Source: Apostichopus japonicus (lineage: Eukaryota > Echinodermata > Holothuroidea > Aspidochirotida > Stichopodidae). Taken from it: a stretch of DNA of 64,000 bases. Where the stretch lies: contig NC_092579.1 in NCBI RefSeq assembly GCF_037975245.1, forward strand, positions 4,488,001 through 4,552,000, in the 5' to 3' direction. Below the pieces are notes generated by a model that saw only the letters and a list, made by a program, of their open reading frames with translations, was not told the DNA's origin and did no database searches. Positions 32,710 to 57,900 of this stretch are shown here, in pieces (within the stretch, counting starts at the first letter, position 1; each line of letters starts with the position of its first letter). Position numbers and translations under genes: made by a program.

Positions 32710-34122
32710 TTAATCCTTAATGTTTACCTGGAATAATTGAAACTGAAGTTGTCTAATTTTTACATGTCCATCTGGAATATTGGAGTAATACTTTTTAAGG
32801 TTTTTTGTAGCCTCAGTCAAGTATCCCCACTTTCCTGTGATTCTATTTTCCAGCTCGCCTGGTCTTTCCTTCAGTATTTTCACACAAGACTTAAATATTT
32901 CTTCACAAATCGACGCAGCTTTCTCCGTGACTCTGCGGCCACTATTGGACTTCACTAAGTGCTGGACATACCAGTGCTGTGCCTCTAAGCGATCTTGTAA
33001 AGATGACTCGAATCTTTTAATCGCCTCCAGATAGGTTGCCTCTGCTCTATCGTATTCTCTCAACTTGTGATGAGCCCAGGCCTTATGGACAAACGCATAA
33101 AAATGTCCAGGCTCCTTTGCGAGGCATTTGTCGATGTTTCTCATCTCAGCTCGAAGATACCTGTACTTGTCATCATTATTATTACTCTGCTTTGCAAGTT
33201 GACTATATATCAGAGATTTTTGGAAGAATATGTCTGATCTAGGCGTCTTCAACTTTTCACCCTTTTGTAACACATCCAGTGCATTTTGAAGCTCGTTTTG
33301 CCTACGATAAAAACGAGCTTTGACGAGAATCACTTGACACGATTCGTCCCTAGCTTCTTCAATCAGTCGCCTCGCCTCATTGCTTCTCTCTGGAATTTTT
33401 ATCAAAACTGACGCCATATCACACCGAGCAGCGTCATTTGTTGGATCTAGCTCGATAGCCTTCTCATAGTATTTAATTTCCTCGTCCATTCCATCGTACC
33501 GGTCGGTGGCGCTCTTGGTATGTTTGCGAGCGAACCGTCCGACCAATTCACCACATGTGTGATACCAAGATGCTTTGGATTGGATTACTTCTGTCGCTCT
33601 TTTGTATCTTTGCAGTGCTTCTTGACATCTAGTGAGCCCAAGACGGGCCAGAGCAAATCCCTCTATTACATAAATGTAAGCATGAAGCTCCTCTGACTGC
33701 GCTGTTGGCTTCGCCAACCAATTTTCCGTCAGCGTTTTGAGAAGCATTTCTCGTTCATCATTCGGCGCCGCGGAGCCACTCTGCTTGAATTTCTCCAGGA
33801 GCCAAAGGCGGTTTGCCGACGACACTGTTAGACAAGCCTGTCGCTCTTGGTTATCGTCAAGTTCACGGGCCTCCTCTTCCGCCTGAAGAAAGAATTCACG
33901 AGCCTTCACCGGGTTAAGGTTCACTTCTTTGAACTTCTGGGAGACCTCTATGTACCCTCGAAAAAGCAGGAGGTCACATACTGAATCTCTCCAACCTACC
34001 TCGTCCCTCGTTTCAAGTTTACTGTCGAGTTTGTTCACAATTGTTTCGTAATCCACGGTACAGTCCTTCTCTAGCTGCCAATTAAAGTGGCAGGGGACCT
34101 GTTTCCACCAATCTGAATCCAT
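32710..34122 (-). CDS. IFIT-like: IFIT-like tetratricopeptide protein, copy A
   Basis: 470-residue frame read from ATG 34122; the frame is open 20 codons further, but a TTTTCAAG splice acceptor ends at 34158. The ATG sits in a strong context (AAGATGG). IFITs are about 470-490 residues, with nearly all coding sequence in one exon after a short first exon, as here. CHFNW (residues 11-15) matches the N-terminal CHFTW of vertebrate IFITs. YYEKAIELDPTNDAARCDMA (about 216-235) and RFYRRQNELQNALDVLQKG (about 267-285) are TPR helices; KFYRRKG with KALELLKKAL sits at the same place in human IFIT1. A further TPR is KAWAHHKLREYDRAEATYLEAI. Vertebrate IFITs are cytosolic antiviral proteins that bind non-self 5' RNA ends; RNA binding here is inferred. 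No signal peptide or membrane segment. It shares 95% identity with copy B. Alternative: another superhelical TPR family. Confidence 0.85.
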   Translation of the reverse strand: MDSDWWKQVPCHFNWQLEKDCTVDYETIVNKLDSKLETRDEVGWRDSVCDLLLFRGYIEVSQKFKEVNLNPVKAREFFLQAEEEARELDDNQERQACLTVSSANRLWLLEKFKQSGSAAPNDEREMLLKTLTENWLAKPTAQSEELHAYIYVIEGFALARLGLTRCQEALQRYKRATEVIQSKASWYHTCGELVGRFARKHTKSATDRYDGMDEEIKYYEKAIELDPTNDAARCDMASVLIKIPERSNEARRLIEEARDESCQVILVKARFYRRQNELQNALDVLQKGEKLKTPRSDIFFQKSLIYSQLAKQSNNNDDKYRYLRAEMRNIDKCLAKEPGHFYAFVHKAWAHHKLREYDRAEATYLEAIKRFESSLQDRLEAQHWYVQHLVKSNSGRRVTEKAASICEEIFKSCVKILKERPGELENRITGKWGYLTEATKNLKKYYSNIPDGHVKIRQLQFQLFQVNIKD

Positions 34123-34529
34123 CTTGGTCGTACTTTTGCGCTTCCGTGTAATCGATCCTTGAAAAGGTAATAGAAGAAACATACAATGTTATAAGCGATT
34201 TTCATTGAAATGAGCTATTCAGACTAACTCACAGAAACAAAAACAAAAGGAAGAATGGGCAGAAAACGGATGGATGGATGGATGGGTGAATGGCCAACAA
34301 GATCTCGGATCCTTTGTTTTGAAGCAGAAGTTACAATGAATATCTGTCAGCCCAAGAAAAAGGAATAGAACTCAAATTCCTAGCATGATTTCGCACCTAA
34401 TTTTTAGTGCATTACAAAGGTAACATCACAATGATAAACGGTATGTTACTCTACGCTACATTTTATTGAAATCATGTATTTTTATGTAATGTTTAGTAAA
34501 TTGATGCAATAAAAATTAAATCAACCTAC

Positions 34530-35079: not shown

Positions 35080-35136
<57 letters not shown>

Positions 35137-35143
35137 ATATATA
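35080..35143. repeat. (TA)n microsatellite at the Penelope 3' end
   Basis: TA run ending directly at the element. With 38671-38712 it forms the two halves of the insertion site. Confidence 0.9.
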
Positions 35144-35527
35144 GGAATAACGGAAAAAACTGTTAAACAACTATGCTGCATTTAGAGAAAGGCTGGATCT
35201 CGAGTGAGATACAATAATTGAATTAAGTAAGTGATTGGAAGTAAAACAGCCAATGTTTGGTTTTTGCAGAGCTTTCGAGCAAAACTAGCTCTTCTTCAGT
35301 GCATGATCACCGAAAGTGACAAGGAGTAGCAGGAATTGAAACTGTTTTATAGAGAAGATGTCGGCATGGTTGTAAAGGCAAAGCGACTTACTGATTTCTG
35401 CTGAATAGAGCAGAAGTATTAGAAATTCGGATTATTTTAATCCGCGTCGGATTATTTTAATCCGATTCCGTCGTAATTGTAAAGGAATTGTTTTGGTTTA
35501 TCTGGGACGGCAAATCGTTTCTGATGT
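35141..35527 (-). repeat. Penelope pseudo-LTR, 3' copy
   Basis: Contains the C-terminal codons and stop (35457) of the element protein, a duplicated ATTCGGATTATTTTAATCCG-like palindrome around 35424-35464, and a degenerate hammerhead motif at 35267-35303. Confidence 0.9.
35267..35303 (-). ncRNA. Degenerate hammerhead-ribozyme motif in the pseudo-LTR
   Basis: On the minus strand: TGCA, CTGAAGA, A, GAGC-TAGTTTT-GCTC (stem II, 4 bp), GAAA, GC, TC, TGCA. The two TGCA strands pair as stem I, and GC would be a minimal palindromic stem III. The box CTGAAGA differs from canonical CTGATGA at one core base, so cleavage may be weak or absent. The same motif is at 38411-38447 in the other repeat. Hammerheads in Penelope-like repeats are established knowledge. 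Confidence 0.6.
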
Positions 35528-38258
35528 TTAAGCCGAATGGTGCCGTGGTCTTTAGGTTTAGTTCCCAGAAATTTTCTTTCGCTTTCCTAGATTTATCTGT
35601 CCAAGAATCGTTCTGGTCAATGGCAATAACACGCAAATTCTCAATTGAATGATTTTGGAGATTGAAGTGATTTGCAACGGGTTGGTGGATCTTTTTTGTT
35701 TTGATCGCCGATCTATGTTGTGTCATTCTCATTCTAAGAGTGTTTTTTGACTCTCCAATGTATTGTAAGTTACAAATATTGCAGTAGATGAGGTAAATGA
35801 CATTTTTGGATAGGCAGTTAATTTTGTGCCGAATTTGGAACGTGCGTTTGGTTTGGTTGCTCTGAAAGGCCCCGGTCGAATCGACAAGTAAGCACGTTTT
35901 GCAATTTTGTGTACAGGGCGATGATCCTGTAGTTTCTGTTTTGCTTTCCCCTAATGGGGTGTCATCCCGAAAGGATGCCCGAACTAAGATATCCCGTAGG
36001 TTGCTGGGTCTTTTAAAAGCGATGACAGGTAATTCTGGGAATACTGATTTCAGGCGTTCGGTGCCTTGAAGTAGGTGAAAATTCTTCTGAATGATATTAG
36101 CCAGTGGTGGGAGACCAGGGTGGAATTCAGTAACCAATGGTACCCTTTTGGAACTGGTTTGACGAGTTTTGTACGTCAATGTTTCGGTACGGGGTTTGCT
36201 TTTAGCCTTTTTGATGGCATTTTCAATAGTACCCCGAAAATACTGTCTGTTTAGGAGGTGTTGTGACAGTTCTTTAGTGCGTGAATCAAAATCGACTTCA
36301 GAGGAGCAAATGCGTCGAATGCGCAACGCTTGACTGTACGGAATATTTCTGGTGCAGTGACGTGGATGGCAACTGCTTGGTAAGAGGTAATTGTGCTTGT
36401 TCGTGGGTTTATTGAACAAGTCTGTTTTGAGTGAACCATTTTGTAGGGTCACGGTGGTGTCCAGAAAGTGAACGCCATGTCCAGAAAAATCAGCAGTGAA
36501 TTTGATAGTGTGATGAAACGAGTTTATGTCATCAATGAAGAGTTTTAGATTAGCCTCACCATGGGTCCATATCATAAAGATATCGTCAATGTAACGTAAC
36601 CACGTGTGTGGTTTCAAGTTTTGTCGAGATAAAAATTCTTTCTCGAGGTTTCCCATAAAGATGTTGGCAAAAGACGGTGCCATTTTGGTACCCATTGCGG
36701 TGCCATGAATTTGGAGGTAGTGTTTGTTGCCAAATACCAGATTATTGTTGGTCAAGATAAGTTGCATTAATTCGGCCAATTCTTTCTTCGTGGGGGTTTT
36801 GCCACGTATCGGTTTGAATGCTTTTGTGCAGGCCGAAATGCCCTCTTCGTTAGGGATATTTGTGTATAACGAAGACACATCCAAGGTTACTAACAGAGAA
36901 GATAAGGGAAGATTTTTTATTTCCCCAATTTTCCGGATGAAATCCGTAGTGTCCTGCACATAGGACGGTAGGGCCGAAACGAGAGGTTGGATGAGGAGAT
37001 CCACGAATTTGGAAATTTTTTCAGTGGCTGTGCCATTACCCGATATTATGGGCCTCCCGGGATTGCCTTCTTTGTGAATTTTAGGCAGAAAATAAAAGCG
37101 ACCAGGTTTTGGGTCGTTTTCCAGGAGGTTTTGGCCTAACTTGCGGTCAATGGAACCGTTAGAGACTATCTTTTGGATGACTCTTTTCACGTTTTGTGTG
37201 ATTTCTTGAGTGGGATCAGAATCCAGGAGTTTGTAGTGTTGAGGGTTGCCGAGTAGTCTGTTGGCTTCCTCTCTGTAGAATTGTTTGCCCATAGCGACAA
37301 TTGCAGAACCCTTGTCGGCTGGCTTGATGACAATGTCATCGCGCTTCCGCAGTTCATGAATGGCCTGTCTCTCAGTTTTGTTGAGATTGTCGCGGAAGTC
37401 TGGGGCGGAGGTGTGTGTTTTGACATCCTCTTCAATGGCCGAAATAAATTATTCAAGAGGCGCACAATGGGCCTTGGGTGGATTCCACGAGCTTTTTGGC
37501 TTAAAATTGGAATGCAAGTCGTTGGTTTCTTGCGTGGTGTTATTGCCATTTTCGTCGGCAAAAAATTCACGGAGACGTAAGCGTCGATAGAACAGATTTA
37601 GGTCAAGAGAAAGTTTCTGAGCGTTTACTTGCCGTGGTTTAGGGCAAAAATTTAGACCTTTGGAGAGTAGGTTTGTTTCTCCTGCCGAGAGTTGGCAATC
37701 AATGGTAACAACTGCACTTTTGGTGGTGTTGCATGCGGTCTGTATCTCTTTCCGACGGAATCTGCGAGACCTGGTTCTTTTTGAGGTTTCAAGTTGGGTT
37801 TCACCAGAAGACTTAACTCTTTGCGTGACATTATCCCTCTTCAATTTGTGACATTGTCTTGAAGCTAGGGTATGTGAGAGGTTCAAGCAAATTTTGGAGA
37901 TGGAGTCAAGCTTTCTTTCGAACTCGTTCTTTGGGAGTTCTTTTTGCAGTTTTCTGGTTTTGGAATCAATTTGCTGGCTAAGTTCGTGAATTGTTTTGCG
38001 ACAAATACTTATTTGCACAGCCATTAATTCAAGCGAAGCATTCTTAAGGATGCCTTTCCAATTGGCAAAGCTGTCGCTGTCAGAAAGTGGTAAACCAGCA
38101 CGGACCTTGATTTTAAGTCCTTTTGGTACCGTTTTGTTTTTACGGTATAGTCTGTAGTTGGAAAGATGATGCCGATACCTAACCCGTTTTTCGGAAAGGC
38201 GTCGAAGCGTTTTCAAAGTTTCAAAGATGCTCTCCATTTTGAAGCATAGTTGGATCAA
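35457..38258 (-). pseudogene. Penelope reverse transcriptase/GIY-YIG protein with one in-frame stop
   Basis: One continuous frame of about 933 codons from ATG 38258 (a second ATG is seven codons on) to a stop at 35457. The only interruption is a TAA at 37451-37449. Upstream of it lie a basic N-terminal region and the LSKGLNFCPKP and FYRRLRLREFF blocks typical of the family. Downstream come KPADKGSAIV, FYFLPKIHK, LDVSSLYTNIP, GTAMGTKMAPSFANIFMG and the RT active site YIDD. The C-terminal nuclease has IYLIYCNICNLQYIGES (GIY-YIG) with a nearby Cys pair. The protein would copy RNA into DNA primed at nicked target DNA. The stop could be a true mutation, an assembly error or a recoded codon. Confidence 0.9.
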
Positions 38259-38284
38259 TTAGATACCAACAGTGAAAGATATAG

Positions 38285-38668
38285 ATAGGAATAACGGAAA
38301 AAACTGTTAAACAACTATGCTGCATTTAGAGAAAGGCTGGATCTCGAGTGAGATACAATAATTGAATTAAGTAAGTGATTGGAAGTAAAACAGCCAATGT
38401 TTGGTTTTTGCAGAGCTTTCGAGCAAAACTAGCTCTTCTTCAGTGCATGATCACCGAAAGTGACAAGGAGTAGCAGGAATTGAAACTGTTTTATAGAGAA
38501 GATGTCGGCATGGTTGTAAAGGCAAAGCGACTTACTGATTTCTGCTGAATAGAGCAGAAGTATTAGAAATTCGGATTATTTTAATCCGCGTCGGATTATT
38601 TTAATCCGATTCCGTCGTAATTGTAAAGGAATTGTTTTGGTTTATCTGGGACGGCAAATCGTTTCTGA

Positions 38669-38671
<3 letters not shown>
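38285..38671 (-). repeat. Penelope pseudo-LTR, 5' copy (truncated)
   Basis: Identical to 35141-35527 by eye, including the C-terminal codons of the element protein and the degenerate hammerhead at 38411-38447. It stops abruptly at a TA tract. Confidence 0.9.

Positions 38672-38712
<41 letters not shown>
38671..38712. repeat. (TA)n microsatellite between SINE and Penelope element
   Basis: TA run with one CA interruption, joining the 3' tail of the SINE to the 5' end of the Penelope element. Confidence 0.9.
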
Positions 38713-38713
38713 G

Positions 38714-38850
38714 TAAATAAATAAAGAATAACACACCAGAAAAATTCAACTTCACGACCGGTTTCGTCCTTCTGGGACTCATCAGGCGAAGGTAATAATC
38801 GAACCCCGGATCTCACGAACCGAAGTCCGTACCACTCGACCACATGTACA
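38714..38850 (-). mobile_element. tRNA-derived SINE carrying a hammerhead body
   Basis: Minus strand, in order: A-box-like TGGTCGAGTGGT (38842-38831; type II tRNA Leu/Ser style), B-box GGTTCGATT (38805-38797), the hammerhead at 38791-38750, a TTTTTCTGGTGTG segment, and an ATTCTTTATTTATTTAC tail running into (TA)n. The order head, body, AT-rich tail is that of a SINE. The 5' limit is approximate and no target duplication could be fixed because the tail is interrupted by the Penelope element. Confidence 0.72.
38750..38791 (-). ncRNA. Hammerhead ribozyme, canonical core
   Basis: Minus strand. Stem I strands CTTCGC (38791-38786) and GTGAAG (38755-38750) pair over 6 bp including one G-U. CTGATGA (38785-38779) is the first core box. 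Stem II is GTCC/GGAC around a CAGAA loop, followed by GAAA (38765-38762). A palindromic CCGG forms a minimal stem III, and TC precedes the predicted cleavage point between 38756 and 38755. All conserved core bases are present. The loopless stem III suggests it acts as a dimer, as reported for retrotransposon hammerheads. Activity is inferred. Confidence 0.85.
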
Positions 38851-38899
38851 GTGATTCCACTGGTGTGTGATGCGTATAAATAGGCTTTATATAACTGTC

Positions 38900-39440
38900 A
38901 GTTAAACAAAGCCAATTTATAACTTGGCGACTAACATTTCTAAGTCGCATGAATTCGCCTATTTCCAGTAATTGATAGGCCTAATTAGAACGATAAGCAT
39001 CAATTAGATAATTCTCTTGAACGACCACCGGTCTTCTTGATCTGAATGGGTGGCAAGCAGTAGTTAGTCCATAAATTGTACCTTTCGTGAAACAGTTCAA
39101 CAAAAGCTACGCTTAAACATATTTGCCTCAGTGATATTAAGGTTTGGACGGCCTAAATCATTCTCTATTTCTCTCTTTGTTCAAATAAAATCGCTATCTC
39201 TAATTATTTCAAACAAGTAAGTATTCTTACGAAAAATACATACATACACTACTAAACTCTCAAACTTATAACGATCAATATCAAGTATAGCGTAAAAACT
39301 CTTTTTTTATGTGCGATCCAAATCAGACTAAAACTATTTCCCAGACAGTTCTAAATCTTTCTAACCCCGCCTTAGCAGTAACATAAACAGTTTTCTTTCA
39401 TGAATAGCAGTTAAAAGTGCAGCAACGCTGCAGAAGGGGG
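38900..39440. repeat. Spacer repeat upstream of unit B, copied at 46500-47020
   Basis: Shares long blocks with 46517-47018, for example TTATAACTTGGCGACTAA, ACACCGGTCTTCCTGATC-type sequence and AGTGCAGCAACGCTGCAGAAG, in the same order and orientation. It reveals the tandem-array period. Confidence 0.85.
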
Positions 39441-43282: not shown

Positions 43283-44695
43283 TTAATCCTTAATGTTTAC
43301 CTGGAATAATTGAAACTGAAGTTGTCTAATTTTTACATGTCCATCTGGAATATTGGAGTAATACTTTTTAAGGTTTTTTGTAGCCTCAGTCAAGTATCCC
43401 CACTTTCCTGTGATTCTATTTTCCAGCTCGCCTGGTCTTTCCTTCAGTATTTTCACACAAGAATGAAATATTTCTTCACAAATCGATGCAGCTTTCTCCG
43501 TGACTCTGCGGCCACTATTCGACTTCACTAAGTGCTGGACATACCAGTGCTGTGCCTGCAAGTGATCTTGTAAAGATGACTTGAATCTTTCAATCGCCTC
43601 CAGATAGGTTGCCTCTGCTCTATCGTATTCTCTCAACTTGTGATGAGCCCAGGCCTTATAGACAAACGCATAAAAATGTCCAGGCTCCTTTGCGAGGCAT
43701 TTGTCGATGTTACTCATCTCATCTCGAAGATACCTGTACTTGTCATCATTATTATTACTCTGCTTTGCAAGTTGACTATATATCAGAGATTTTTGGAAGA
43801 ATATGTCTGATCTAGGCGTCTTCAACTCTTCACCCTTTTGTAACACATCCAGTGCTTTTTGAAGCTCGTTTTGCCAACGATAAAAACGAGCTTTGACGAG
43901 AATCACTTGACACGATTCGTCGCTAGCTTCTTCAATCAGTCGCCTCGCCTCATTGCTTCTCTCTGGAATTTTTCGCAAAACTAACGCCATATCACACCGG
44001 GCAGCGTCATTTGTTGGATCTAGCTCGATAGCCTTCTCATAGTATTTAATTTCCTCGTCCATTTCATCGTACCGGTCGGCGTTGCTCTTTTCACCTTTGC
44101 GAGCGAACCGTCCGACCAATCCACCACATGTGTGATACCAAGATGCTTTGGATTGGATTACTTCTGTCGCTCTTTTGTATCTTTGCAGTGCTTCTTGACA
44201 TCTAGTGAGCCCAAGACGGGCCAGAGCAAATCCCTCTATTACATAAATGTAAGCATGAAGCTCCTCTGACTGTGCTGTTGGCTTTGCCAACCAATTTTCC
44301 GTCAGCGTTTTGAGAAGCATTTCTCGTTCATCATTCGGCGCCGCCGAGCCACTCTGCCTGAAGTTCTCCAGGAGCCAAAGGCGGTTTGCCGACGACACTG
44401 TTAGACAAGCCTGTCGCTCTTGGTTATCGTCAAGTTCACGGGCCTCCTCTTCCGCCTGAAGAAAGAATTCACGAGCCTTCACCGGGTTAAGGTTCACTTC
44501 TTTGAACTTCGGGAAGACCTCTATGTACCCTCGAAAAAGCAGGAGGTCACATACTGAATCTCTCCAACCTACCTCGTCCCTCGTTTCAAGTTTACTGTCC
44601 AGTTTGTTCACAATTGTTTTGTAATCCACGGTACAGTCCTTCTCTAGCTGCCAATTAAAGTGGCAGGGGACCTGTTTCCACCAATCTGAATCCAT
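43283..44695 (-). CDS. IFIT-like: IFIT-like tetratricopeptide protein, copy B
   Basis: 470 residues from ATG 44695, uninterrupted. The acceptor TTTTCAAG before the main exon and the AAGATGG start context match copy A. It carries the same CHFNW motif and TPR helices. By hand I count about 25 amino-acid differences from copy A but only about eight silent ones. They cluster at residues about 196-208 (HTKSAT versus GEKSNA) and on helices facing the repeat groove, including FYRRQ to FYRWQ near residue 270. Vertebrate IFITs bind RNA through a groove formed by these helices, so the two copies may differ in ligand preference; this is inference. A shared upstream region suggests similar regulation. 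Confidence 0.85.
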   Translation of the reverse strand: MDSDWWKQVPCHFNWQLEKDCTVDYKTIVNKLDSKLETRDEVGWRDSVCDLLLFRGYIEVFPKFKEVNLNPVKAREFFLQAEEEARELDDNQERQACLTVSSANRLWLLENFRQSGSAAPNDEREMLLKTLTENWLAKPTAQSEELHAYIYVIEGFALARLGLTRCQEALQRYKRATEVIQSKASWYHTCGGLVGRFARKGEKSNADRYDEMDEEIKYYEKAIELDPTNDAARCDMALVLRKIPERSNEARRLIEEASDESCQVILVKARFYRWQNELQKALDVLQKGEELKTPRSDIFFQKSLIYSQLAKQSNNNDDKYRYLRDEMSNIDKCLAKEPGHFYAFVYKAWAHHKLREYDRAEATYLEAIERFKSSLQDHLQAQHWYVQHLVKSNSGRRVTEKAASICEEIFHSCVKILKERPGELENRITGKWGYLTEATKNLKKYYSNIPDGHVKIRQLQFQLFQVNIKD

Positions 44696-45238
44696 CTTGG
44701 TCGTACTTTTGCGCTTCCGTGTAATCGATCCTTGAAAAGGTAATAGAAGAAACATACAGTGTTATAAGCGATTTTCATTGAAATGAGCTATTCAGACTAA
44801 CTCACAGAAACAAAAACAAAAGGAAGAATGGGCAGAAAACGGATGGATGGTGAATGGCTAACAAGATTTCGGATTTTTTTGTTGAAGAAGAAGTTACAAT
44901 GAATATCTGTCAGCCCAACAAAAAGGAATAGAACTCAAATTCCTAGCATGATTTCGCACCTAGTGCATTTTAGTGCATTACAAGGGTAACATCACAATGA
45001 TAAACGGTATGTTACTCTACGCTACATTTTATTGAAATTATGTATTTTTATGTTATGTTTAGTAAACTGATGCTATACAATATTAAATAAACCTACAGAA
45101 AACTTGGAGATGATCTTGATCTTGATCGCTATTGATATGCAGAGTATGCGAACGACTTCAAGCAACAATTGCTAATAAATTGTTATATGGATACACCGCA
45201 ACATATATACTCTTATTTTTCGTAATTCTAAAATGACG

Positions 45239-54900: not shown

Positions 54901-57900
54901 CACTAGCTTGTGATTGTATGGGTTTAACAAAGTATTTTGCACAAACCAATATTAAAATTCCATATTAAATTATATTGTATCAATCTTCAGTTTCATTGGT
55001 GTAGGCTGCAAATTACTCGGTGAAGCTGCCAGAAAACAGTGTGTGATTCGCTCATACTGATCATGCTGCTTTGATGTATAGGGAACTATCAAAAAAAGAA
55101 AATATATTTTAAAGGGCTCACAATTTGTGTTTTCACGTTCTTGCACAACACAATGTAGCAATATACCTACACTTACACACTGTGATACATCAATATATAC
55201 CAGCAACCACTACCCATTTCTCTTTTTTTTTAGAATGCAGTCAACTTGACAAGATGTTTTGGTAACTTGTGACCTAACCGTACTAGAATGCACTAGAAAA
55301 TGGGATTTATTTGTTTCAAGTGTGGACAACATATAAGTGGGAGGACAAGAGAATTAGGATATCATCTTCATGCATTTCACACAGTTGTAGGCTCAGGTGA
55401 TCACCTAACTTGTGGACAAGATGGATGCATGAAGACATTCACCATAATTAATTCCTACTTGAGTCACATAAGGCATGAACATGCACCGCATCAGAATGAA
55501 CAGATTGTTGGGAATAATTTAAATGAAAATAACCGGCATAATGATGTCAATCATGAAATTGACGATTTACCCGAACCAGAATTTGAAGAGAATGACATTT
55601 TTCAAGAAATGGAACCTGAAGTTAATGGACATGCTTTGGACTACCTAGAAGGTTTTGATCATGAATCACTAAAGAAGCTAGCCGTTCATTTGATTATAAA
55701 GTTGAGGTCTACCTGTTCAATTTCATTCTCATCAATACAAACAATTATTAGTGGTACAAGCGATATGTTTAGATATGCAGTTTCCTCTCTACAGCAGGAT
55801 ATGTTGCGCTTAATGGAAACACATGGAGTAGATATCAATGCCCCAGATGTAGGTAACCTTTGTGCAAAATTTAACTTGTTTGAAAATCCGTATGCTGGTA
55901 TCGAAACAGAAAGAAAACAGGCTACATACATGGTCGAAAACTTAATGTTGGTCAAACCAATTCAGATTGCTTTAGGAACACGGTTTGAACAAGCAGTTGA
56001 ACGGAAAACTGGTGAAATTGTACAGAAGGTAGTAACTGACAGCTTTCAATATATTCCTGTTGCTGAAGTTATTAAACTTATTTTGAGTCAACCTATTGTT
56101 AGAGAGTTGATTGAAAATGAAGAACACTCTCCTGAAAATTTTCTCCGAGGTTTTCAGGATGGCACACTATACAAACAATCTGGATTTTTTAAGGAACATC
56201 CATGTGCTCTACGTTTACAGCTATATTATGATGATGTAGAGGTAACAAATCCACTTGGCAGTAAAACTGGTGTTCATAAACTGGCTATGTTTTATTATTC
56301 AATCCAAAATCTACCAAGGCGTTTCAATTGTACAGCAAGTAGCATTCATTTGCTGGCCGCTTGTTATTACCAGGATGTGGCAAAATATGGCTTTGAGCCA
56401 ATTTTGGCACCATTTATTGAAGAAATGAAACACTTTGAAAGTGATGATGGTGTTCAGCTTATGATTGATGGAAGAATGATCAATATTCATGGAAGTTTGG
56501 TGTCATATAGTGCAGACTCATTGGCAGCACATGCATTACTTGGTTTCATGAGCCCCTCTGCTAATAAGCTTTGCAGGTTATGTTATGCCTCACGTGATGA
56601 TATTCAGAACTATTTTCTTGAAGATGATTTTGAGTTGAGAACAATTGATAGTCATGATTTAGATGCAGAAGAAGCTTCTCGACAAGGATTCAGAGACCCA
56701 AGAACTGGTGTAAGAAGCTATTGTCCTCTAAACACCTTGCGAAATTTTCACAGTGCTACCAACTTTAACTTAGACATCATGCATGATATGCTGGAAGGTG
56801 TATGCCCTTATGAAATTAAGTTATTGCTCCACCAGTTTATTTATGTGGATCATTTTATAACTGTAGAAGACTTCAATCAGCGATTGAAGGCATTTCATTT
56901 TCCTTTCAATGATAGAAAGAATAAGCCATCGGCAGTAATGCCTGACCGCCTTCGAAATATTGCAGACCACAAGTTAGGGCAAAAGGCAGTGCAGATGTGG
57001 TGCTTAACTAGAATGCTTCCTCTTCTCATTGGCAGTAGAGTTCCTTACAACAATGAATACTATGAATTGCTTTTGCTATTACTTCGATGCATGGATATTA
57101 TTTTTGCTCCTGTAATCTCCACCTCTCATACCGTTTATCTGAAACATCTAATAATGGAACATCACGCTCAGTTCAAGTTGAAATTTCCAGGGCAACGTTT
57201 TATCAACAAACAACATCATATGGTTCATTATCCTACTTGCATAAGAATGTCTGGACCTCTGACTACACTTCAGTGTCTCAAATATGAGATGAAGCACTCA
57301 TTTAGTAAGAAGATTGCTGCCATTAACTGCAACTTCAAGAATATATGCCAATCAGTCACTCTAAAGCATCAGATTATGCAATGTGCTGTATGGTCTGGCA
57401 GTGGTCTACGCCTTGACTTTGAATGTGCTGGAGGAAATTTAACTTCCATTGATTCACTAGCAGGAAGCAGGGTTATTGCAGAGCATCTACAAGTTGCTGA
57501 AGATACAGAAATATTTGAAGCACGTCAAGTGTCACTTTTTGGTACAGACTATAAGCCAAAATTATTTCTAGCAACAGATATGGTCGAGGACATACCACAA
57601 TTTGGTCGTATTTGTAGCATTTTGGTTCGTGCACAGACACCTGAATCTGTTTACTTTGTAGTCCAGAAGTGGCGAAACAAAGGATTTTCCCCTCACTTTC
57701 ATGCCTATGCAGTGACAAATTTGGACAACCCAGAATTCTCCATCGTACAGCTTGAGTCTCTCTTAGATTTCCATCCTCTGTCAGGATTAACCTCATATGA
57801 ACAACATTCACCACTTTATCTGTGTCCGAGATACACCCTCAGTCAGAATAATTGAAGGTATATCAATAGTTTCTCTCTTTATTTCTAAACACAATAGTTG

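Follow-up and report, generated by a model that had tools for sequence, protein, structure and literature searches.

A probable hammerhead retrozyme in the sea cucumber Apostichopus japonicus with ends resembling those of Penelope-like elements

The best described relatives of the element reported here are the metazoan non-LTR retrozymes (Cervera and de la Pena 2020, PMC7229834), which, in the portion of that article available, are likewise non-coding, low-GC tandem units of ~170-400 nt with a type I hammerhead. One axolotl class from the same portion shares a very short helix III with a palindromic tetraloop; hammerheads of this class, with a single-pair helix III, are described as poor alone and better as dimers. 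The sea cucumber element differs in having A and B boxes upstream of the hammerhead and in occurring mostly as truncated single insertions in (TA)n, and circular RNA, shown for the published retrozymes, is a putative product here. The terms polymerase III, SINE, tRNA-derived and A box or box B are absent from the main text of PMC7229834. A tRNA-like part combined with a hammerhead is, however, already known from schistosomes, where Sm-alpha and Sj-alpha (PMC2770079, PMC8490949, PMC4918200; accessible text) are likewise short dispersed elements with tRNA-related sequence and a type I hammerhead, so a hammerhead within a tRNA-headed element has a precedent. According to the same texts, Sm-alpha is called tRNA-Gln-derived, its tRNA part being seen by tRNAscan-SE, whereas no tRNA is recognised in the sea cucumber head; Sm-alpha has >10,000 copies (about 38,500 hammerhead matches) compared to hundreds by exact patterns here, the two elements being likened by description.

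Penelope-like elements provide a second point of reference. In the available text of PMC3846280 and PMC11167929 they share with our element AT-rich ends, a ~31-bp 3' extension on the inverted copy, head-to-head copies and partial tandems, while the retrozyme differs from them by having no protein and a type I hammerhead of canonical size instead of the minimal form. Inverted pseudo-LTRs, simple AT-rich targets and a 31-bp tail that is not always present are reported for Penelope insertions (PMC3846280, in part), and for an anole Penelope element reverse transcription from two internal sites and cutting of AT-rich DNA are reported (PMC11167929, in part). As candidates likely to move retrozymes, the literature names Penelope-like elements, and according to one paper the repeats lack any conserved motif that would reveal their partner (PMC7761336, accessible portion). 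Helenus and related TRIMs (PMC10886601, accessible portion) are likewise short non-autonomous retroelements with internal tRNA-type A and B boxes, but they are LTR elements with PBS and PPT, whereas the sea cucumber element is filed as non-LTR; hammerhead appears once in that portion, within a cited title.

The window, i.e. the entire 64,000-nt stretch of A. japonicus DNA analysed here (GCF_037975245.1, NC_092579.1, positions 4,488,001 to 4,552,000), contains a real hammerhead with a complete core (Table 1). In keeping with this host, a 23-letter Notch primer of A. japonicus (PMC13164408) has a single exact match in the genome and 0 for the control. Rfam assigns the hammerhead to RF00163 (Hammerhead_1) with 36.2 bits against a gathering score of 34 and an E-value of 2.1e-5, while RF02275 (HH9) reached 37.2 bits in the window, below its 52-bit gathering score. 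CUGANGA, GAAA and UH are all in place and the three helices open at stem I, as in type I hammerheads, with helix III consisting of a single A-U pair capped by the palindromic CCGG. The sequence-only reading had the coordinates and the motif right, including all core boxes, stems I and II and the CCGG, and requires one addition, namely that the ribozyme is on the minus strand. Of the 45 aligned copies, between 39 and 45 can form stems I and II; these copies come from loci chosen with the core and show no clear double-sided covariation in the two stems. Origin as a chance motif is ruled out by the Rfam score together with a genome-wide control, in which the strict pattern CTGATGAGTCC N2-14 GGACGAAAC was found 336 times and the reversed pattern 0 times.

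Table 1 Features of the retrozyme copy and the adjoining Penelope-like element in the window
Feature	Position	Strand	Basis and remarks
Retrozyme copy (L009), 5' truncation at unit ~199 and 3' end at ~49	38692..38905	-	mapping; 3' limit approximate, merges with (TA)n
Outer-stem 5' arm ACACACCAG	38860..38868	-	sequence; would enclose boxes and hammerhead
A-box-like motif TGGTCGAGTGG	38832..38842	-	sequence; exact in 26/42 loci
B-box-like motif, worn GGTTCGATTAT	38795..38805	-	sequence; GGTTCGATTCC in 34/42 loci
Type I hammerhead, complete core	38750..38791	-	Rfam RF00163 36.2 bits, sequence, fold
Stem I 5' arm CTTCGC	38791-38786	-	sequence
Core CTGATGA	38785-38779	-	sequence
Stem II GTCC / loop CAGAA / GGAC	38778-38766	-	sequence
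Core GAAA	38765-38762	-	sequence
Palindromic CCGG	38761-38758	-	sequence
TC	38757-38756	-	sequence
Predicted cut	between 38756 and 38755	-	sequence
Stem I 3' arm GTGAAG	38755-38750	-	sequence
T5 run just past hammerhead, possible Pol III stop	38740..38744	-	sequence
Outer-stem 3' arm CTGGTGTGT	38731..38739	-	sequence, fold
(TA)n tract, 3' end of retrozyme copy, abuts Penelope-like element	38671..38712 (about)		sequence
Penelope-like element with pseudo-LTRs, neighbour and not part of the retrozyme	35141..38670	-	sequence, domains
Penelope-like ORF, RT and GIY-YIG	35457..37448	-	RVT_1 E 1.1e-11, GIY-YIG E 2.2e-5

The hammerhead belongs to a dispersed family. Its association with an upstream B box, noted before for this single locus, recurs in the genome, with 322 matches to B-box motif plus hammerhead against 1 in the control, a few of them overlaps or chance matches such as L047. 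The lack of further genomic copies, which the sequence-only reading had named as its own refutation, therefore does not apply. The exact B-box pattern accompanies 62 of the first 99 strict hammerheads, and 16 of the remaining 37 were checked; all 16 match the retrozyme unit but have an altered B box or are truncated on the 5' side. When 221 nt of the window copy served as DNA query, the 40 of 1086 candidates that were scored were 86-89% identical, the window itself excluded. Conservation of the core in loci chosen by the core was set aside as selection-biased, and a pattern of B box and 3' stem that leaves the hammerhead free was used instead, yielding 227 genome matches and 0 in the control. 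Among the 100 of these flank-chosen matches listed, 69 keep the core in full and 31 have it broken, and the cut site reads TC in 87, TT in 12 and otherwise in 1. No excess conservation of the core was detected in these listed copies (mutation 0.033 compared to 0.039 elsewhere), and given this small difference, single copies appear to accumulate mutations freely.

The unit measures ~330-355 nt, and the natural dimer L020, from which the reference unit was taken, gives 349 nt. Numbered from the cut site at 0, this 349-nt unit has the T run at 11-15, a first 3' end site near 49 and a second near 84, a GC hairpin at 151-163, the outer-stem arm from 236, the A box at 256, the B box at 299 and the hammerhead core at 319. 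It is 41% GC and has no long frame, a doubled unit containing at most 84 open codons in a row. Head-to-tail hammerhead pairs one unit apart yielded 27 spacings including one trimer (control 0), from which unit lengths of about 329-354 nt follow, the pattern itself allowing about 328-358; some of the spacings are segmental duplicates. In being a non-coding, low-GC unit in the ~170-400-nt range with a type I hammerhead and tandem copies, the element has the sequence features of metazoan non-LTR retrozymes. The predicted circular fold of the unit reaches -91.8, while 60 mononucleotide shuffles, which form a weak control, average -78.1 (sd 4.5). L020 is the sole locus in which units are more identical to each other than the best between-locus value; within-locus identity is lower than between loci in L043 and about equal in the other loci with enough overlap. 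The locus counts draw on 60 loci (L009-L068), from which eight duplicates (L016, L036, L044, L045, L046, L048, L051 and L063) were removed, while L021 was left out as the orientation step required CTGATGAG, L047 was left out as a chance pattern match, and L001-L008, found with a loose pattern, are outside all counts.

Directly 5' of the hammerhead, A and B box motifs are present as the sequence-only reading described, although the copy it was based on is worn, with two changes in the B box and an A-to-B distance of 37 nt, compared to 43 nt in 18 of the 21 loci with both boxes exact. As both are exact in 21 of 42 loci, the element has the tRNA-like spacing expected of a tRNA-derived SINE. The ten pairs of the outer stem form in between 29/43 and 45/45 aligned copies, across which no clear double-sided covariation was seen, and a run of at least four T lies no more than 20 nt past the hammerhead in 41/43 loci. 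No tRNA was recognised in the retrozyme head by Rfam (3 loci, E up to 1) or by ARAGORN (window and 12 loci). The retrozyme A box is one letter apart from that of tRNA-like sequences in the same genome, which we take to be of Leu/Ser type; these were considered as parent tRNA and rejected, their A-to-B distance being ~10 nt longer than in the retrozyme, and no parent is named. A short Pol III RNA, distinct from the mobile one, may arise from the boxes. On C13, tRNA-like sequences that have the A box TGGCCGAGTGG and a long A-to-B distance are densely arrayed at about 12.69 Mb and 14.81-14.83 Mb. ARAGORN also called a tRNA-Cys in the flank of L052 (2345-2424, minus strand) and a tRNA-Phe in that of L067 (1687-1760, minus strand), and CCTCCACCGGGATTCGAACC stretches resembling these calls recur beside several retrozyme loci, perhaps as a separate tRNA-derived SINE.

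The ends of the copies hint at the class of enzyme that inserts them. The 5' ends of 55 mapped forward copies are scattered over unit 2-340. In 38 of these copies the A box is preceded by 57-254 nt of unit sequence, only 4 begin close to a Pol III-type start (unit 240-262) and a single one begins at the cut site. Seventeen of the 55 fall at unit 168-199 (p = 5e-6 against an even spread, for an interval picked post hoc), immediately 3' of the GC hairpin, where a reverse transcriptase may halt. At the other end, 35/55 forward copies terminate at unit 45-52 and every one of these runs straight into (TA)n, while 9 end at 72-86 (4 of them in (TA)n) and 11 elsewhere (3 in (TA)n); as a background, 81/5574 of the 20-mers in these loci are (TA)-like. 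What had been read as an AT-rich tail in the window is indeed AT-rich, but is actually a (TA)n microsatellite with a Penelope-like element against it. The inverted stretches number 17, of which 7 terminate at 72-86, without exception in (TA)n, one terminates at 49 and 9 at neither site. Fifteen of the inverted stretches adjoin a forward copy, and seven such loci (L012, L015, L018, L020, L027, L030 and L031) end at 49 on the forward and at 72-84 on the inverted copy, 23-35 nt apart, with (TA)n outside each. Hence 7 of 15 inverted pairs display the combination expected of a Penelope mobiliser, an optional ~31-bp 3' extension on the inverted copy in an AT-rich target. This double end signature in (TA)n is apparently new.

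The counts at the two sites depend in part on sampling. L009-L038 (set A) were found with a query containing the TA tail, and 28/29 of their copies end at the first site; the excess there is therefore partly a product of the search. In the pattern-chosen loci, the first site accounts for 7 forward ends, the second for 9 and other positions for 10, and the contrast between forward and inverted ends (49 versus 84) has p 5.6e-4 with all loci and 0.19 with the pattern-chosen forward set only. The existence of two preferred end sites is less affected by this bias. With a laxer mapping most forward copies seemed to end at 84, but this mapping extended across the TA repeat; it was judged spurious, and the stricter mapping was used. 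Thirteen of the 55 copies are longer than one unit, a length that either a circular template or a multimeric transcript would account for. A strict genome pattern for 3' ends at the hammerhead cut gave 0 matches, as did a control-position pattern. In one duplicated insertion (L090/L091) the end coincides exactly with the predicted cut site, and a TA-rich repeat comes next.

The Penelope-like element that abuts the window copy has pseudo-LTRs identical over 300 nt (35135-35434 and 38279-38578), and an in-frame stop divides its ORF from a 269-aa frame at 37449-38258 (minus strand). Its family looks young, judging from the best 26 of 68 protein matches listed, which are 99-100% identical. In several other genomic copies the frame stays open for at least 933 aa, and one pair of copies in head-to-head inverted arrangement can be seen (C8). 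All 20 pseudo-LTR ends examined run from GTTATTCCTAT into (TA)n; they were picked among the 40 top-ranking hits of a query ending in CTATAT, and about 19 are independent (L075 and L076 look duplicate). For the 5' ends, 11/12 regions gave no match and one held an inverted copy. A 3' sequence common to the retrozyme and this neighbour, suggested by eye, was rejected, as 711/1000 shuffles equalled it; similarity of the 3' region to the retrozyme is thus not significant for the window's family. Both pseudo-LTRs hold a stretch TGCACTGAAGA..GCTCGAAAGCTCTGCA (38447-38409 and 35303-35265, minus strand), which by eye resembles a minimal hammerhead, with CTGAAGA, GAAA, a palindromic AGCT and a self-complementary TGCA stem; Rfam reported no hammerhead in it at E up to 10. 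Elsewhere in the window, near-identical 492-aa stop-to-stop frames with TPR repeats (32710-34188 and 43283-44761, minus strand) represent a recent gene duplication, and an 852-aa stop-to-stop frame (55297-57855, plus strand), with no Pfam match at E up to 0.001, is by eye transposon-like with a zinc-finger-like start.

With moderate confidence, we propose that the window feature is a worn, 5'-truncated, non-autonomous metazoan non-LTR retrozyme with degenerate A and B boxes, whose hammerhead-processed RNA is mobilised in a Penelope-type manner. Read-through or multimeric transcripts would be cut by the hammerhead, which probably acts as a dimer because its helix III is so short, and a unit-length RNA would result, which a host ligase may circularise. 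A reverse transcriptase of the Penelope type, equipped with a GIY-YIG endonuclease, would then open (TA)n DNA and begin to reverse-transcribe the RNA at either of two preferred positions (unit ~49 or ~84), and priming from both DNA strands would generate the head-to-head inverted copy. Cleavage, circles, the Penelope enzymes and the role of the boxes are all steps that we infer. For the enzymology we offer a more tentative model, in which a Penelope-type reverse transcriptase and endonuclease, provided in trans, might open both strands of (TA)n and use two start sites ~33 nt apart, one per strand, leaving inverted copies behind. The double retrozyme ends resemble the optional ~31-bp 'tail' of Penelope-like elements, and as the 3' region of the window's Penelope element has no significant similarity to the retrozyme, they suggest an enzyme class and not a family.

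The sequence-only reading had placed the hammerhead in a tRNA-derived SINE, in which a Pol III transcript from the element's own A and B boxes would be the self-cleaving, mobile RNA. This fits the 322 joint matches of B box and hammerhead, the 43-nt spacing in 18/21 loci with both boxes exact, an A box one letter off the genome's tRNA-like sequences and the precedent of Sm-alpha. However, the boxes are mid-unit and not at the element's 5' end, upstream starts (38/55) far exceed those near a Pol III-type start (4), and the head was not recognisable as a tRNA with Rfam at 3 loci or ARAGORN at the window and 12 loci. Moreover, a Pol III transcript should end at the T run past the hammerhead (41/43 loci), yet copies continue to unit ~49 or ~84. 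Copies thus reach past the Pol III transcript on both sides, a behaviour unlike that of a conventional tRNA SINE, and we consider this origin of the mobile RNA improbable. A satellite-like repeat spread by DNA recombination only, with the hammerhead as a relic, would account for head-to-tail units, for segmental duplicates such as L043-L046 and for the broken core in 31 of the 100 flank-chosen matches listed, but retrotransposition typically produces dispersed copies that share fixed 3' ends in (TA)n, vary in their 5' ends and have inverted neighbours, leaving this explanation very improbable.

Two further explanations concern the partner. Pasting of the retrozyme by a (TA)n-targeting LINE-type enzyme, with inverted copies arising through twin priming, is unlikely in our view, but the most serious of the alternatives, as target-primed copying by a LINE would also yield single copies with (TA)n junctions, one constant 3' end and variable 5' truncation, and the neighbouring Penelope family shares no common 3' sequence. 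Targeting of (TA)n alone is not unique to Penelope elements. Against a LINE-type enzyme stand the two 3' ends ~33 nt apart, the longer being on the inverted copy (7 loci) as described for Penelope, and the 13/55 copies that exceed one round. That the hammerhead is instead part of the Penelope-like element itself, within a pseudo-LTR, has next to no likelihood: it adjoins the pseudo-LTR, and Penelope elements elsewhere carry minimal hammerheads at that place (accessible text of PMC11167929 and PMC7761336), but the retrozyme stretch is located outside both pseudo-LTR copies, which contradicts such an arrangement, and among the retrozyme loci used pseudo-LTR sequence accompanies only L009 (the window), L043 and L052.

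A literature search covering few subscription papers found no earlier report of a hammerhead ribozyme in A. japonicus, and the host group is apparently new for hammerhead retrozymes as far as this literature goes. The element adds a second case, besides the schistosomes, of Pol III-type boxes and a hammerhead travelling together. Its end signature makes the reverse transcriptase partner of a retrozyme testable in an animal with a chromosome-level genome, and if the model of Penelope-type enzymes acting in trans is true, the enzyme class that moves metazoan retrozymes would be settled for one species.
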